DNA of 64,000 nucleotides, taken from positions 124,001-188,000 of the forward strand of contig DUCM01000013.1 of NCBI GenBank assembly GCA_012959785.1, read 5' to 3'. Of the stretch, positions 2,889 through 46,986 are shown in pieces. Position 1 is the stretch's first letter; each line of letters begins with the position of its first letter. A program made the position numbers and the translations under genes. This DNA is from Planctomycetota bacterium. Lineage in GTDB: Bacteria > Planctomycetota > UBA1135 > GCA-002686595. The notes below the pieces were generated by a model. It made no database searches and was not told the origin of the DNA. It saw only the letters and a program-made list of their open reading frames with translations.

Positions 2889-3136
2889 CCGCGCCATAGG
2901 CACTTCCCCGGCGGAAACCTTTTCCAAGGGGGGGGGCAGGGAGGGTCTGGGGTGGGGGTGTGAGCCTTATATGGGTGGGAGGTAGGCGTGCGTTGCCGCC
3001 GGGGTCAGGAGCCTGGGATACGGTTTGCCGTGGGCTTCGTCGTGCGCCGCGCTCGAGCGCTTGGGTCCACGCACCGCCGCCTTTTGTTTTTGTATCTGAA
3101 TCGTTCTCGATGACGAGGACTGCCCCGGCCACGACT

Positions 3137-4822
3137 ATGAACAAGACCTCCGCTATCGGTTTCGCTCTCGCCACCCTCGCCTTGCCCTCCTTCGCCCAGG
3201 AGGATATTTTTTCCCAGGGTGGACGCAGCGCTGGAGGGCGCTTCGGCTCGAGTATCGCCGGAGGCTTTGATGTCGATGGAGACGGCTTGGCGGATTTCGT
3301 GGTGGGGGAACCCTATGAAAATCGACTGGGGCCCATGACTGGAGCCGTGCGTGTGGTTTCGGGAGCCAATGGTGCGGACATTTACCTTCGCGGCGGCAAC
3401 TCGGCCTATGACCTCTTCGGTGCCAGCGTGGCCCTTGGCGACCTCGATGGCGATGGCCGGGCCGAGTTCATCGTGGGCGCCTACGGCGACGACTCCAATG
3501 GTACGGACAGTGGTACGGTGTTCGTCTACTCCGGAGCCAGTGGCAACCTCTTGTATACGTTGACCGGCGACGAAGGCGACCACTTCGGTTTTTCGATTTC
3601 CTTCGTGCCAGATACAAATGGCGATGGTCGCGGCGATTTCGTGGTGGGCGCCCGCGCGGCAGACACGAACGGCAACAATTCCGGGGCGGCGCTGCTCTTC
3701 TCAGGTCTCGATGGCACCCTACTGCACGAGTTTGGCGGAGAGGCGGCCTTTGACCTCTTCGGCAGCGCGGTGGCGGGCTGTGTCGATCTCGACGGCGATG
3801 GGCTGGGCGACTTGATTTGTGGCGCGTACTTGAATGACGCCCAGGGCTCCGGTGCTGGGAGGGCCTATGTCTACTCCGGAGCGAGTGGCAGTTTACTCTT
3901 CACCTTGCAAGGCACTGGGGTTGGCGACGCCTTTGGCTATGCGGTGGACGATGCAGGCGATGTGAACGGTGATGGCGCCAGCGACCTGATCGTGGGTGCG
4001 CCGAGCAACGACACTAGCTTCCAAAATGCCGGTCAGGCCAGCGTGTACTCAGGCGTTGATGGCACGCTGTTAATGGTTGTGAACGGCGACGCTCCCGGCG
4101 ACAACTTTGGTTCGACCGTGGCGGGCTCCCTGCGCATCGACGGCGATGGGTTGGACGACTTCATGGTGGGAACAATCGCCAGCGACGCTAACGGCGTGAG
4201 CTCGGGCATGGTGCGACTCTTCGCCGGTCTGGATGGGTCAGAGCTGGCAACCCTGCTGGGCTCGAGTCCGGGAGCGCGCCTCGGTTCCGCCCTGTGCAGC
4301 GCCGGAGACATGGACCTCGATGACAACACGGAGCTCTTGATCGGCGCCTGGGGCGAAGACGGTGGCGCGGGGGCCTTCAGCGGTGTCGTTCACTTGGTTG
4401 CTTTCGCGGCACCCTCGACGCTCTTCAATAGCTACTGCAATTCCAATCTCAACTCCTTGGGAGTGGCGGCCACGATCTCCGCTGTGGGCAGCAATAGCCT
4501 GGCCTCCGGCGATCTCGAGCTTGTAGCTGATGGCCTGCTCGCCAACCAGACAGGGCTCTTCTTCCACGGTTCGAATCAGGTGCAGTTTCCCTTTGGGGAT
4601 GGTTTCCTGTGTGTCGCAGGTCAGTTATTCCGCTACGGGATCGTCGCTGCGGACGCCGTGGGGCAGGCGCGGCTGCTCGTGGATTATGCGGCTCCCCCGG
4701 TCGCCGCGAACCAGATCACAGCCGGTAGTCAGTGGAACTTTCAGTTCTGGTACCGCGACAACCACAGCAGCAACGCGGGATTCAATCTGACCGATGCCAT
4801 GGCGCTGACCTTCGCCCCCTGA
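3137..4822 (+). CDS. Secreted FG-GAP repeat protein with shared C-terminal module
   Basis: A 561-residue exported protein. A signal peptide is seen in MNKTSAIGFALATLALPSFA followed by QED. ATG 3137 is chosen because it starts directly at the signal peptide; ATG 3110 would add nine residues. Seven integrin-like FG-GAP blades follow, each with a Ca-binding loop, for example DVDGDGLADFVVG, DLDGDGRAEFIVG, DTNGDGRGDFVVG, DVNGDGASDLIVG and RIDGDGLDDFMVG; the last, DMDLDDNTELLIG, is degenerate. They should form a beta-propeller. From about nt 4425 comes a separate ~130-residue module (YCNSNLNSLG, GLFFHGSNQVQFPFG, FLCVAG, WNFQFWYRD, FNLTDAM) that recurs in the metalloprotease at 45607-46986. The propeller is probably extracellular and used in adhesion or matrix binding. 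No enzymatic residues are seen. Confidence 0.88.
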   Translation: MNKTSAIGFALATLALPSFAQEDIFSQGGRSAGGRFGSSIAGGFDVDGDGLADFVVGEPYENRLGPMTGAVRVVSGANGADIYLRGGNSAYDLFGASVALGDLDGDGRAEFIVGAYGDDSNGTDSGTVFVYSGASGNLLYTLTGDEGDHFGFSISFVPDTNGDGRGDFVVGARAADTNGNNSGAALLFSGLDGTLLHEFGGEAAFDLFGSAVAGCVDLDGDGLGDLICGAYLNDAQGSGAGRAYVYSGASGSLLFTLQGTGVGDAFGYAVDDAGDVNGDGASDLIVGAPSNDTSFQNAGQASVYSGVDGTLLMVVNGDAPGDNFGSTVAGSLRIDGDGLDDFMVGTIASDANGVSSGMVRLFAGLDGSELATLLGSSPGARLGSALCSAGDMDLDDNTELLIGAWGEDGGAGAFSGVVHLVAFAAPSTLFNSYCNSNLNSLGVAATISAVGSNSLASGDLELVADGLLANQTGLFFHGSNQVQFPFGDGFLCVAGQLFRYGIVAADAVGQARLLVDYAAPPVAANQITAGSQWNFQFWYRDNHSSNAGFNLTDAMALTFAP

Positions 4823-10435: not shown

Positions 10436-12355
10436 CTAATCCGTGCAAGGCAAGCCGAGCTGGGTTGTCGCTCCGCTGGCTACGGTGAACTCGATTGAGT
10501 CCTGGCCCGGATCATCCTGCACAGTCAAGGTGTATTGGCCGGAGGCGAGCGTTACTTCGATGGGCAACTCCACGCGGCCGTCATGGACGATGTAAGCAAA
10601 GTCGGGAGCGATATTCGGGCGCTGCAACACCAAGCGCAGTTCGCGGCACTCGCTATTGCGGCTCGGGACGCTGGGCGCGAGGGCGAGCCAGCCAAAAGCC
10701 GGCAAGCTCAGTGAGCCGATGTCGAGTAGTTCGCCGGCTCCCACCCGGTAGCGCACATCGGGAATCCAGCCGCGGCCATGGTTGGGGAAAATCAGGACGT
10801 ATTCCCCAGGCGGTAGGGGCGGGGTCCTGAACGAAGCGTCCACGAGGTCGGTGGTCAGAGACAGGTTGTGGCCTGTGCCGAGGAGGTGAACCAGGAATGT
10901 CACGCCCACCGCCGGTCGGCCGCTGGCTTCGCGCAGGCGTCCCCGCAGCGGCGTCGCATGCTCCTCGTCCTGATTGAGACGGATTTCGTCCTCGCGGCTT
11001 CTGGGATCTTGCAAGACGCGAGTCGGTAGGCTGCCCGCAGCCAGGGGGTGGTAAAGATAGAGTTGCGCTGCACGCCCCGCTTGAGAGTCGGGCAATACAT
11101 AACGCCCATCCTCGTCAGTTCGCGTGACATGCAGCGGTTCTTGAGCGGCGTCCTCGAGCTGGAGCTCGACGCGCCAACCGACGAGTGGCAGACCTTCGGC
11201 GTTGAGCAGTGTTCCCGCTAAGACTTCGACCGGTTCGAGCAAGGCGTTCCAGATGCCGAGTTCGCCGGGCTCGAGGACCATCTCGGCCGTCGATTGATGG
11301 GTGATCTGACCCTTGTCGCGACAGACTGCGTGCAGGCTGATGCGGCCTGCGGGGAGGTTGCGCAGGAAGAACTCGCCCCTTGCGTTGGAGCCGGTCTCCA
11401 CCACGGAATCAGGATCATCGCCCATTCCCGTGATGCGGGCACAGGAAACATCATGGCCGTCGGTGCGGGTCAGACGGCCTTCGATGGAGCTCGCATGCTG
11501 CATGCGCAGGCGTCGTTGCGTGGACTCGCCGGCCACGAGGCGCAGGGTGGTTGAGCGCGGACAGAAGCCTTGGGCGGAGAGTTGAACCCGGGCCTGACCC
11601 GGTTCGAGCCCCCGCAGCACCGCTTCGCCCCAACCATTGGTGAGCACCGCGGGCGCTCGGGTAACAGGGCCTTTTCCCTCGGCCTTGGCGAAACCTGTTG
11701 CGTCTCTGGTGACGGCCGTGGTCACGCGCAGCTCAGCTCCGGGTACAGCCAGGCCAGAGTCGTCGACCACCTGTACTACTAACACGGCTCCACGACCACG
11801 CAGGCGCAAGACGAGTCGTTCTTGGCTTGGACCGCTCCAAGTTGCTCGTGTGGAAGGAGCGTGGAACTCATGGCGCGCGCCCACATGGATCATGGCGCCG
11901 GTCCGCCAACGGGCGCGGGCACTCGGGCCGTCAAGTTCCAGGGCGAAGAGCCCCTTGCCGTTGGTGGTTCCGTGGGACTTGTACTCGCCGTCATTCACCC
12001 AGATCACGGCTCCCGCCACGGGCTGGTTGTCCTCGTCCATGACCAGGCACTCGAGGGTCAGAGTCTCCGAGCGAGCTTGTTCGGGGAGCACAATACCTCG
12101 CCGCAGGGAAGCGGGAGCGGCCGCTGGCAGCAGGGCGACTTCGAGGTTGGCGACGCGCGTTGGCTGGCGCAGAGGTCTCTCGGTGTCGGAGGCGTGAACA
12201 ACCCGCGACCCGTTCTTGCCGCTGTCCTCTCGGGGGTAGAGCGTGAAGGCTGTGACCACCAGCGACAGGCATGCAGCAAACAGCGCCCAGCTGACCGGTT
12301 GGAGTGATGCGCCTTGCAGGGAGCGCGGACCCAGGCGCAGAGAGTTGTTAGGCAT
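10436..12355 (-). CDS. Membrane-anchored multi-domain carboxypeptidase-regulatory-like protein
   Basis: A 639-residue protein with an N-terminal transmembrane helix (VSWALFAACLSLVVTAFTLY) after a short cytosolic stretch. The rest is exported and built of several Ig-like CarboxypepD_reg or SdrD-B-like beta domains. Typical strands are LECLVMDEDNQPVAGAVIWV, VVQVVDDSGLAVPGAELRV, GRLREASGRPAVGVTFLVH and LPPGEYVLIFPN. ATG 12355 is chosen because it directly precedes the membrane segment; upstream codons give low-quality sequence. No catalytic site is visible. It could be a surface scaffold. It is divergent from manA. Confidence 0.78.
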   Translation of the reverse strand: MPNNSLRLGPRSLQGASLQPVSWALFAACLSLVVTAFTLYPREDSGKNGSRVVHASDTERPLRQPTRVANLEVALLPAAAPASLRRGIVLPEQARSETLTLECLVMDEDNQPVAGAVIWVNDGEYKSHGTTNGKGLFALELDGPSARARWRTGAMIHVGARHEFHAPSTRATWSGPSQERLVLRLRGRGAVLVVQVVDDSGLAVPGAELRVTTAVTRDATGFAKAEGKGPVTRAPAVLTNGWGEAVLRGLEPGQARVQLSAQGFCPRSTTLRLVAGESTQRRLRMQHASSIEGRLTRTDGHDVSCARITGMGDDPDSVVETGSNARGEFFLRNLPAGRISLHAVCRDKGQITHQSTAEMVLEPGELGIWNALLEPVEVLAGTLLNAEGLPLVGWRVELQLEDAAQEPLHVTRTDEDGRYVLPDSQAGRAAQLYLYHPLAAGSLPTRVLQDPRSREDEIRLNQDEEHATPLRGRLREASGRPAVGVTFLVHLLGTGHNLSLTTDLVDASFRTPPLPPGEYVLIFPNHGRGWIPDVRYRVGAGELLDIGSLSLPAFGWLALAPSVPSRNSECRELRLVLQRPNIAPDFAYIVHDGRVELPIEVTLASGQYTLTVQDDPGQDSIEFTVASGATTQLGLPCTD

Positions 12356-12586
12356 GAGGATTGGGGCTGGACCGTTTGGATCCCGCAGGGCAACTGCCCT
12401 GACACCGTGGCCCTTGCATCGCGGGCCCCTTCCTGATGACCCCAGTTTCCGATTCGGAATAGGTAAGAACCGGGATTTGTTTGCTCCTTTCGTTGTGCTC
12501 TTCAGGCTCGGCAGCCCTGTAGCCCCCCCCCTGGAGGGCACAATTTCTCCCCTCCTGCCGTGGAGACGCTATTCTTGTCGCCCCCC

Positions 12587-45606: not shown

Positions 45607-46986
45607 CTACGGGCAGACCGTGAATTTCAGGCCGTTGGAGAGGTTGAAGTTCGAGCCCCCGCCCGCCGGATCGCGGTACCAGAACTGCATGTACCATTCA
45701 GAGTTCACGGTCCAAGTGCCGGGTCCAGAGCCGAAGGGCGCAAGGTTGTAGTTGACATTCATGGTGACATCGCCCACGAAGTCCGCCTGAATCGGCGGGG
45801 TGCGCACAATGCCTGAGCTGCCGCCCGCGACACACAAAACACCTTCACCGAACAGCGAGGCTGATTCCGCCGAGCCGTAGAAGAAGATGCCAAACTGATT
45901 CGGGGGCAAGCCAAAGCAGGCCACGGTCAAGTTGTTGGCGGCGAGGCTGGTGGAGCCCGAGTAATCGAACAGGGCGCCGTTGCCCACCGAGTTGGTGGAT
46001 GTGGCGCAGAAGGGGATCGGATCCACGCAGCCGCCGTTAGGTTGCACATCGGTGGGGAACGCGTTCGACAGGTCGTTGTGACCGGTCTGGTTGTTGCGCA
46101 CCATGATGTCGCCCGGGCCAGCGTTACTGGGAATCGAGCAGGTGATGGATGAGCCATTCGAGGCCAGGTTGGTGACCTTGATCGGCACCCCACTCCCGCC
46201 GCTGCCGGATTGTGTGAACCAAACCTGGTTGCTACTACCGGCAAAGTTGGATCCGTTCACGGTCAGAGTCGTACCGACGATGACGATGTCGGAAATGTGC
46301 GGCTTGTTGCTTGAGGCCACGCCGTAGATGGACTGCACGCCGGCCGAATCGTCGGAGCCAATCGAGCGTTGCGCGACACCCGAGCCGGTGATCGAGGCCA
46401 GCATCGTCGAGCCGCTCACCGAAGTGTGGCCGAGGCCCAGGGCGTGGCCGTACTCATGGCAGGCGACGCCTTGTAGGTCGATGCCGCCGCCGATGTTGGT
46501 GGTCGGGCCGTCTTGCCAGGTCCAGCTTTCGTAGTAGCGGATGCGCCAGCCATTCGAGATCGGAGTCTCGGTGAAGGCCAAGACGCCGCCGCTGCCGCCG
46601 CTTAGCTCGGAGTGCACATTCTCGTTGGTGGAGCCGATGCTGTTGGCTTCACCCTGGAAGCTGGCATCGAAGTTCCCTCCACCGGAGCCGAGGCTGCCAT
46701 TCTGGTGCGGGTCGCCGGTGCCGTCGCCGTGGATTTCGCTGCCCCATTCGACCGACGCTTTCCAGATGGCCATGACCGCGCCGGTATAACCGGGGAACTG
46801 GTCGTCGGCCGCGGTGTTGTTGTTCGCCTGGGAGTCGGTGAAGTTGTTGAAGGTTCGGAAGTCGCGCTGCGACTGGCTCAGGTCACCACCGATGGTGGTG
46901 AAAGCTCCCGCATCTTGGGCGGGGACCAAAAGCAGGGTGCCAAGGCCAAGGGCCGCTGTGGGCAGGATTAGGTTTTTGTAATTCAT
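45607..46986 (-). CDS. Secreted matrixin-like zinc metalloprotease with shared C-terminal module
   Basis: A 459-residue exported protease. A signal peptide (LILPTAALGLGTLLLVPAQDAGA) is present. The zinc site HEYGHALGLGH (starting at residue 177) and a following methionine in SGSTMLAS make it a metzincin of the M10/matrixin type. After the protease domain there is an IPT/TIG-like Ig domain (ISDIVIVGTTLTVNGSNFAG). From about residue 325 to the end is the same C-terminal module as in the FG-GAP protein (NSVGNG, GLPPNQFGIFFYGSA, GVLCVAGG, WYMQFWYRDPAG, FNLSNGLKF). No propeptide cysteine switch is seen. It lies 12 bp downstream of a small secreted protein gene; the pair is probably one transcript. 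Confidence 0.87.
   Translation of the reverse strand: MNYKNLILPTAALGLGTLLLVPAQDAGAFTTIGGDLSQSQRDFRTFNNFTDSQANNNTAADDQFPGYTGAVMAIWKASVEWGSEIHGDGTGDPHQNGSLGSGGGNFDASFQGEANSIGSTNENVHSELSGGSGGVLAFTETPISNGWRIRYYESWTWQDGPTTNIGGGIDLQGVACHEYGHALGLGHTSVSGSTMLASITGSGVAQRSIGSDDSAGVQSIYGVASSNKPHISDIVIVGTTLTVNGSNFAGSSNQVWFTQSGSGGSGVPIKVTNLASNGSSITCSIPSNAGPGDIMVRNNQTGHNDLSNAFPTDVQPNGGCVDPIPFCATSTNSVGNGALFDYSGSTSLAANNLTVACFGLPPNQFGIFFYGSAESASLFGEGVLCVAGGSSGIVRTPPIQADFVGDVTMNVNYNLAPFGSGPGTWTVNSEWYMQFWYRDPAGGGSNFNLSNGLKFTVCP

Follow-up and report, generated by a model that had tools for sequence, protein, structure and literature searches.

Two exported proteins with a common C-terminal module

The stretch of DNA analysed here (the window, 64,000 nucleotides) belongs to a planctomycete genome of 3.67 Mb (G000) and holds two genes whose products end in the same domain. 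The first gene (3110..4822, + strand), whose start is most likely ATG 3110 or ATG 3137 rather than the listed GTG 2960, encodes a Sec-type signal peptide (3110..3196, with approximate cleavage between LPSFA and QED by a heuristic and by reading of the sequence), six stretches of FG-GAP repeats at about 3242..4400 (Pfam PF01839, E = 1.6e-40) and a terminal module (4427..4819; hmmsearch with profile A2, E = 2e-44, and AlphaFold), directly followed by the stop codon TGA at 4820-4822. The second gene lies on the - strand (45607..46986) and combines a Sec-type signal peptide (approximately 46903..46986, assigned in the same way) with a matrixin-like metalloprotease, its Peptidase_M10 region (46321..46602, residues 129-222; Pfam PF00413, E = 3.4e-14) and a second copy of the module (45610..46029; profile A2, E = 3e-42) next to the stop codon at 45607-45609. 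The two N-termini, MNKTSAIGFALATLALPSFAQ and MNYKNLILPTAALGLGTLLLVPAQDAGA, are both of Sec type, and the signal peptides and the FG-GAP and matrixin-like cores are in agreement with the preliminary description of this DNA.

In a whole-protein BLASTP of the two hosts, significance is confined to the last ~134 residues, where 50 of 134 positions are identical (37%) at E = 9e-22, a value that refers to this single pairwise comparison. The local alignment of the two modules scores 222, and 2000 shuffles gave a mean of 32.7 (SD 5.9) and a maximum of 66. The earlier claim that the last ~130 residues of the two proteins are alike and the rest is not is therefore borne out, and all of the shared landmarks then listed are present in the module alignment; judged from their sequences, the two C-termini are homologous. 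A profile search found the module in these two window ORFs and in no other. A 710-residue ORF at 10439-12568 (- strand), in which a membrane or signal segment and carboxypeptidase-regulatory-like repeats were recognized by eye, is likewise without it.

Copy number, position and cargo in the genome

A profile made from the two window copies matched the 3.67 Mb genome 81 times (E <= 0.01), and 53 genomic regions around these matches yielded 80 module ORFs. Profile A2, made from 73 sequences, gave 84 matches at E <= 1e-5. The original observation was confirmed and had been understated, as the search with the two copies revealed a real homologous domain present some 80 times and not unrelated low-complexity ends. 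In 77 of the 80 ORFs no more than 0-2 residues separate the end of the module from the stop codon; two exceptions have extra domains after it, L043_8448 (FGE-sulfatase) and L072_3294 (hydrolase), where it comes next to the signal peptide, and the third is a partial match. The same position is seen in other genomes, where 124 of 127 module proteins stop no more than two residues after the module. Internal or N-terminal modules do occur in small number (the two exceptions named and L110), so that the extreme C-terminus is not absolutely required.

Within the genome, six module proteins stand in a row on one strand (L085, G000:C2:73400-89900), a local expansion in which at least one protein has galactose-binding-like GBD_T9SS_assoc repeats (PF23759). 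Tandem DCNLNG.PDDCE repeats occur shortly upstream of the module at L077:1047-2066 (- strand), and PDEC stretches resembling them precede it in several other hosts.

Signal-peptide-like starts were scored by a simple Sec-signal heuristic, not by SignalP, and on this basis they are found in 65 of 76 module proteins and in 10 of 34 other long window ORFs, among which there may be non-genes (Fisher p = 1.3e-8). In other genomes the corresponding counts are 94 of 108 module proteins vs 79 of 229 others (p = 1e-20), and several of the proteins that fail the heuristic have a visible hydrophobic start rejected by its charge rule. A mainly cytosolic set of hosts, which had been named as an outcome that would speak against a sorting role, is thus not what was encountered. 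The exported proteins are otherwise very unlike: clustering of 75 N-terminal parts gives 48 unrelated groups, as recounted after trimming of FCFGDGSGTxCPCGN, a part of the module that had linked 47 proteins. The cores include FG-GAP, beta-helix, M10, M43 and reprolysin-like proteases, amidase, endonuclease I and glucose/sorbosone dehydrogenase, together with metallophosphatase, arylsulfotransferase, plastocyanin-like, LVIVD and GBD_T9SS_assoc domains. Among module pairs at least 50% identical, 330 of 355 sit on cores without detectable similarity, from which it follows that the module moves independently of its cargo.

Distribution and subtypes in Planctomycetota

In the 19 genomes of family f1, profile A2 finds 64 to at least 135 copies in 13 and 1-13 in the other six, the counts for large genomes being lower bounds here and below. 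Copies from other families are divergent from the window-like subtype, and a profile made from divergent copies (A6) recovers 24 to at least 150 copies in 20 of 22 genomes, including 31-120 in f1 genomes that A2 had scored low. Across 246 sampled Planctomycetota genomes, 51 have any copy by A6; the module, tentatively put down to the phylum in the preliminary description, thus belongs to only some of its families and not to Planctomycetota as a whole. A scan of named genomes, queried with the window-like subtype only, returned 404 relatives, the best 79 of which are in Planctomycetota MAGs save for several with no more than 'bacterium' or 'uncultured bacterium' as their title and one whose title names Deltaproteobacteria (L160, SP3084), which is either a case of transfer or a mislabelled genome.

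Throughout the superfamily a central G-x-G after PF or F, the motif [ST]-[ND]-[GA] before the last strand and an invariant Q in the penultimate strand, with D four or five residues later, are kept. Two subtypes occur in the window's genome and are set apart by a Cys-rich insert, YC....NS in the window-like form vs [FY]CFGDGSGTxCPCGN.G..G.GCANS in the other; the structural models, of low confidence over the insert, suggest that it is placed between the first two strands.

Predicted structure and database comparisons

The module had been described as long and beta-rich, and this is matched by AlphaFold2, which from the window copy (4409-4819) and 77 relatives predicts with confidence a compact all-beta domain of ten strands (pLDDT 90.5, pTM 0.86); the model of the second subtype has a pLDDT of 80. 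Foldseek returned nothing at E <= 1e-3 for the window copy among solved structures or viral models, and no significant match for the second subtype among solved structures. The nearest structural neighbours are Ig-like and adhesin repeat domains, at a level that is not significant (best E 5.6e-3, TM ~0.3-0.5). Ester-bond adhesin repeats and Ig-like domains thus have a weak overall resemblance of fold to the module, but they are internal repeats whereas the module is a single terminal domain.

Pfam gave no match in 73 modules of the window's genome and 24 divergent ones, NCBIfam has no model for the module (T9SS models included in the search), and PHROGs has no match to it. Several candidate relatives were rejected. 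A PDB profile search pointed to antibody light chains (E 7.5e-5 at best, over ~40 residues and in many near-identical chains), a local strand-motif match to which the structure search gives no support; Pfam CatAgl_D2 (E 0.058) is under its cut-off; weak matches to MXAN_2677/2678 span only the metalloprotease active-site region; and the GldK/GldJ matches of L043_8448 come from its FGE-sulfatase domain and not from T9SS. A literature search that covered the module motifs as well as sorting domains in planctomycetes brought up no relevant work and no experiments.

Exchange with dockerins on choice-of-anchor B proteins

The strongest functional clue comes from the choice-of-anchor B family (TIGR04312 of NCBIfam), which presumably owes its name to its varying terminal anchors. 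It is present in 51 genomes, and in the window's genome both of its members (core E 6e-95 and 1e-93) end in the module. Among 30 members examined, 10 (families f1, f47 and f27) have the module as their C-terminus, followed by 0-1 residues, and one more gives a weak match, 13 (f10 and f23) end in dockerin-like repeats, two (f49) end at the core and four are unassigned. Pfam recognizes Dockerin_1 on all three of the f10/f23 members tested (E 2e-7, 6e-8 and 3e-6). Families f10 and f23 are without the module in the 246-genome count, and genomes from them (e.g., G045 and G201) hold 20-53 dockerins each vs 0-4 in 18 module-bearing genomes. These f10/f23 genomes were picked, not blindly, for the absence of the module from their choice-of-anchor B proteins, and dockerins are few in most of the other module-less genomes tested; the pattern is therefore to be read as an exchange between lineages and not as a universal either/or. 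No Dockerin_1 match was found by Pfam in the modules, and no dockerin in the window's genome. The type I dockerin (PF00404) therefore shares with the module its C-terminal place on choice-of-anchor B cores in related planctomycetes, but it is a calcium-binding helical repeat, whereas the module is all-beta and not homologous to it, and in this sample the two are largely exclusive by genome.

Known sorting systems and candidate machinery

PEP-CTERM/exosortase and other short C-terminal signals resemble the module in that one C-terminal signal is found on many different exported proteins. The module differs from PEP-CTERM in lacking a short motif, a hydrophobic helix and a basic tail; its C-termini end in a beta strand (...FNLSNGLxVxFCP), in keeping with the earlier remark that there is no short hydrophobic tail. 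The preliminary description had also proposed to look for a co-occurring secretion or anchoring gene, and the genes searched for yielded no receptor, translocon or processing enzyme. No exosortase was found in the window's genome or in 10 of 14 module-rich genomes tested, it is present in the remaining four (G005, G015, G018 and G131), and it was rejected as a partner as its presence does not track the module. Secretins were present in each of the 20 genomes tested, whether or not these carry the module, and number six in the window's genome. They are therefore not discriminating: a type II-like route would be at hand, though nothing points to it specifically. SprA was found in 0 of 17 genomes, in a search whose control genomes likewise gave no match and which thus has no positive control.

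A proposed address tag and its alternatives

Sec export, the use of one terminal domain on many cargoes, its extreme C-terminal position and its lineage-specific replacement together lead to the proposal, which we consider rather probable, that the module serves at the C-terminus as an address or anchor and is read by a shared envelope factor after export. As related bacteria carry a different end-domain and the databases searched do not hold the module, it is probably a mailing label for cell-surface proteins. Proteins would be carried across the inner membrane by Sec, after which the tag would fold in the periplasm into its compact beta structure. In this folded state it would be recognized by the shared factor, either an outer-membrane translocon or a surface scaffold, so that the protein would be delivered outside or held at the surface. 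The near-invariant Q-x-W-[YF]-R-D, FG-x-G and R are candidate positions for such reading. The common receptor, the reading of the fold and the crossing of, or residence on, the outer membrane by the cargo are inferred. The idea of a sorting domain put forward in the preliminary description is thus partly supported, namely as regards usage (one tag, many cargoes, extreme C-terminus, exchange in relatives). In a broader version, for which we would put the chances below even, planctomycetes would have an undescribed system for secretion or surface attachment that has no relation to those of T9SS and exosortase. The module would mark its cargo, ~80-150 proteins per genome across several families, and a dockerin-based system would take its place in other planctomycetes.

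It has to be counted against the address tag that most of these genomic features would also be expected of a binding or scaffold domain not involved in transport. Such an accessory domain, carbohydrate-binding or dockerin-like, would keep proteins that are already secreted attached to matrix, to particles or to a scaffold. It would fit the exchange with dockerins, which are known to function in docking, as well as the few internal copies and the Ig-like and adhesin-repeat folds that come nearest in structure, though not significantly. We nevertheless regard it as unlikely, albeit the most serious of the alternatives, because the near-absolute C-terminal position and cargoes as different as amidase, plastocyanin-like and FG-GAP proteins would be unusual for substrate binding, and because ~80 proteins of one genome have a single tag in common. 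It is more doubtful still that the module is a cap for folding or stability, spread by duplication and domain shuffling and with no role in targeting; the six consecutive copies on contig C2 (L085) and the free shuffling between cores are what such a cap would lead one to expect, but its enrichment on exported proteins and the lineage-specific replacement by dockerins point to a shared extracytoplasmic task.

The closest parallel in usage is the T9SS C-terminal domain of Bacteroidota (Por secretion tail), which is all-beta, forms the very end of many unrelated proteins exported by Sec and overlaps with the module in cargo types. The same can be said of the module, a beta domain by prediction whose extreme C-terminal place is on proteins exported by Sec according to the heuristic, and some of its cores (GBD_T9SS_assoc and choice-of-anchor B) are, partly to judge by their names, also found in T9SS taxa. 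That it is a divergent sorting domain of a true type IX secretion system is very improbable all the same: the lack of any Pfam match in the 73 and 24 modules includes the T9SS tail model, no T9SS domain is among the best structure matches, and SprA was not found in the 17 genomes, though in a search with no positive control. With ~130 residues, motifs of its own and no sequence or significant structural match, the module appears comparable in use to the T9SS domain by analogy, while not being detectably related to it.

Implications for planctomycete biology

To our knowledge, the sorting of planctomycete proteins to the cell surface is poorly known. The address tag proposed here is carried by an estimated ~2-3% of genes (from ~80-84 copies in 3.67 Mb) and would provide a handle in the search for its putative receptor. 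Thousands of proteins whose present annotation covers only the N-terminal part, or reads hypothetical, would gain a family name. Through the exchange between module and dockerin it can be tested directly whether dockerins of planctomycetes, here for example on choice-of-anchor B proteins, serve surface display, and the tag would mark much of the surface proteome in many uncultured lineages at once.
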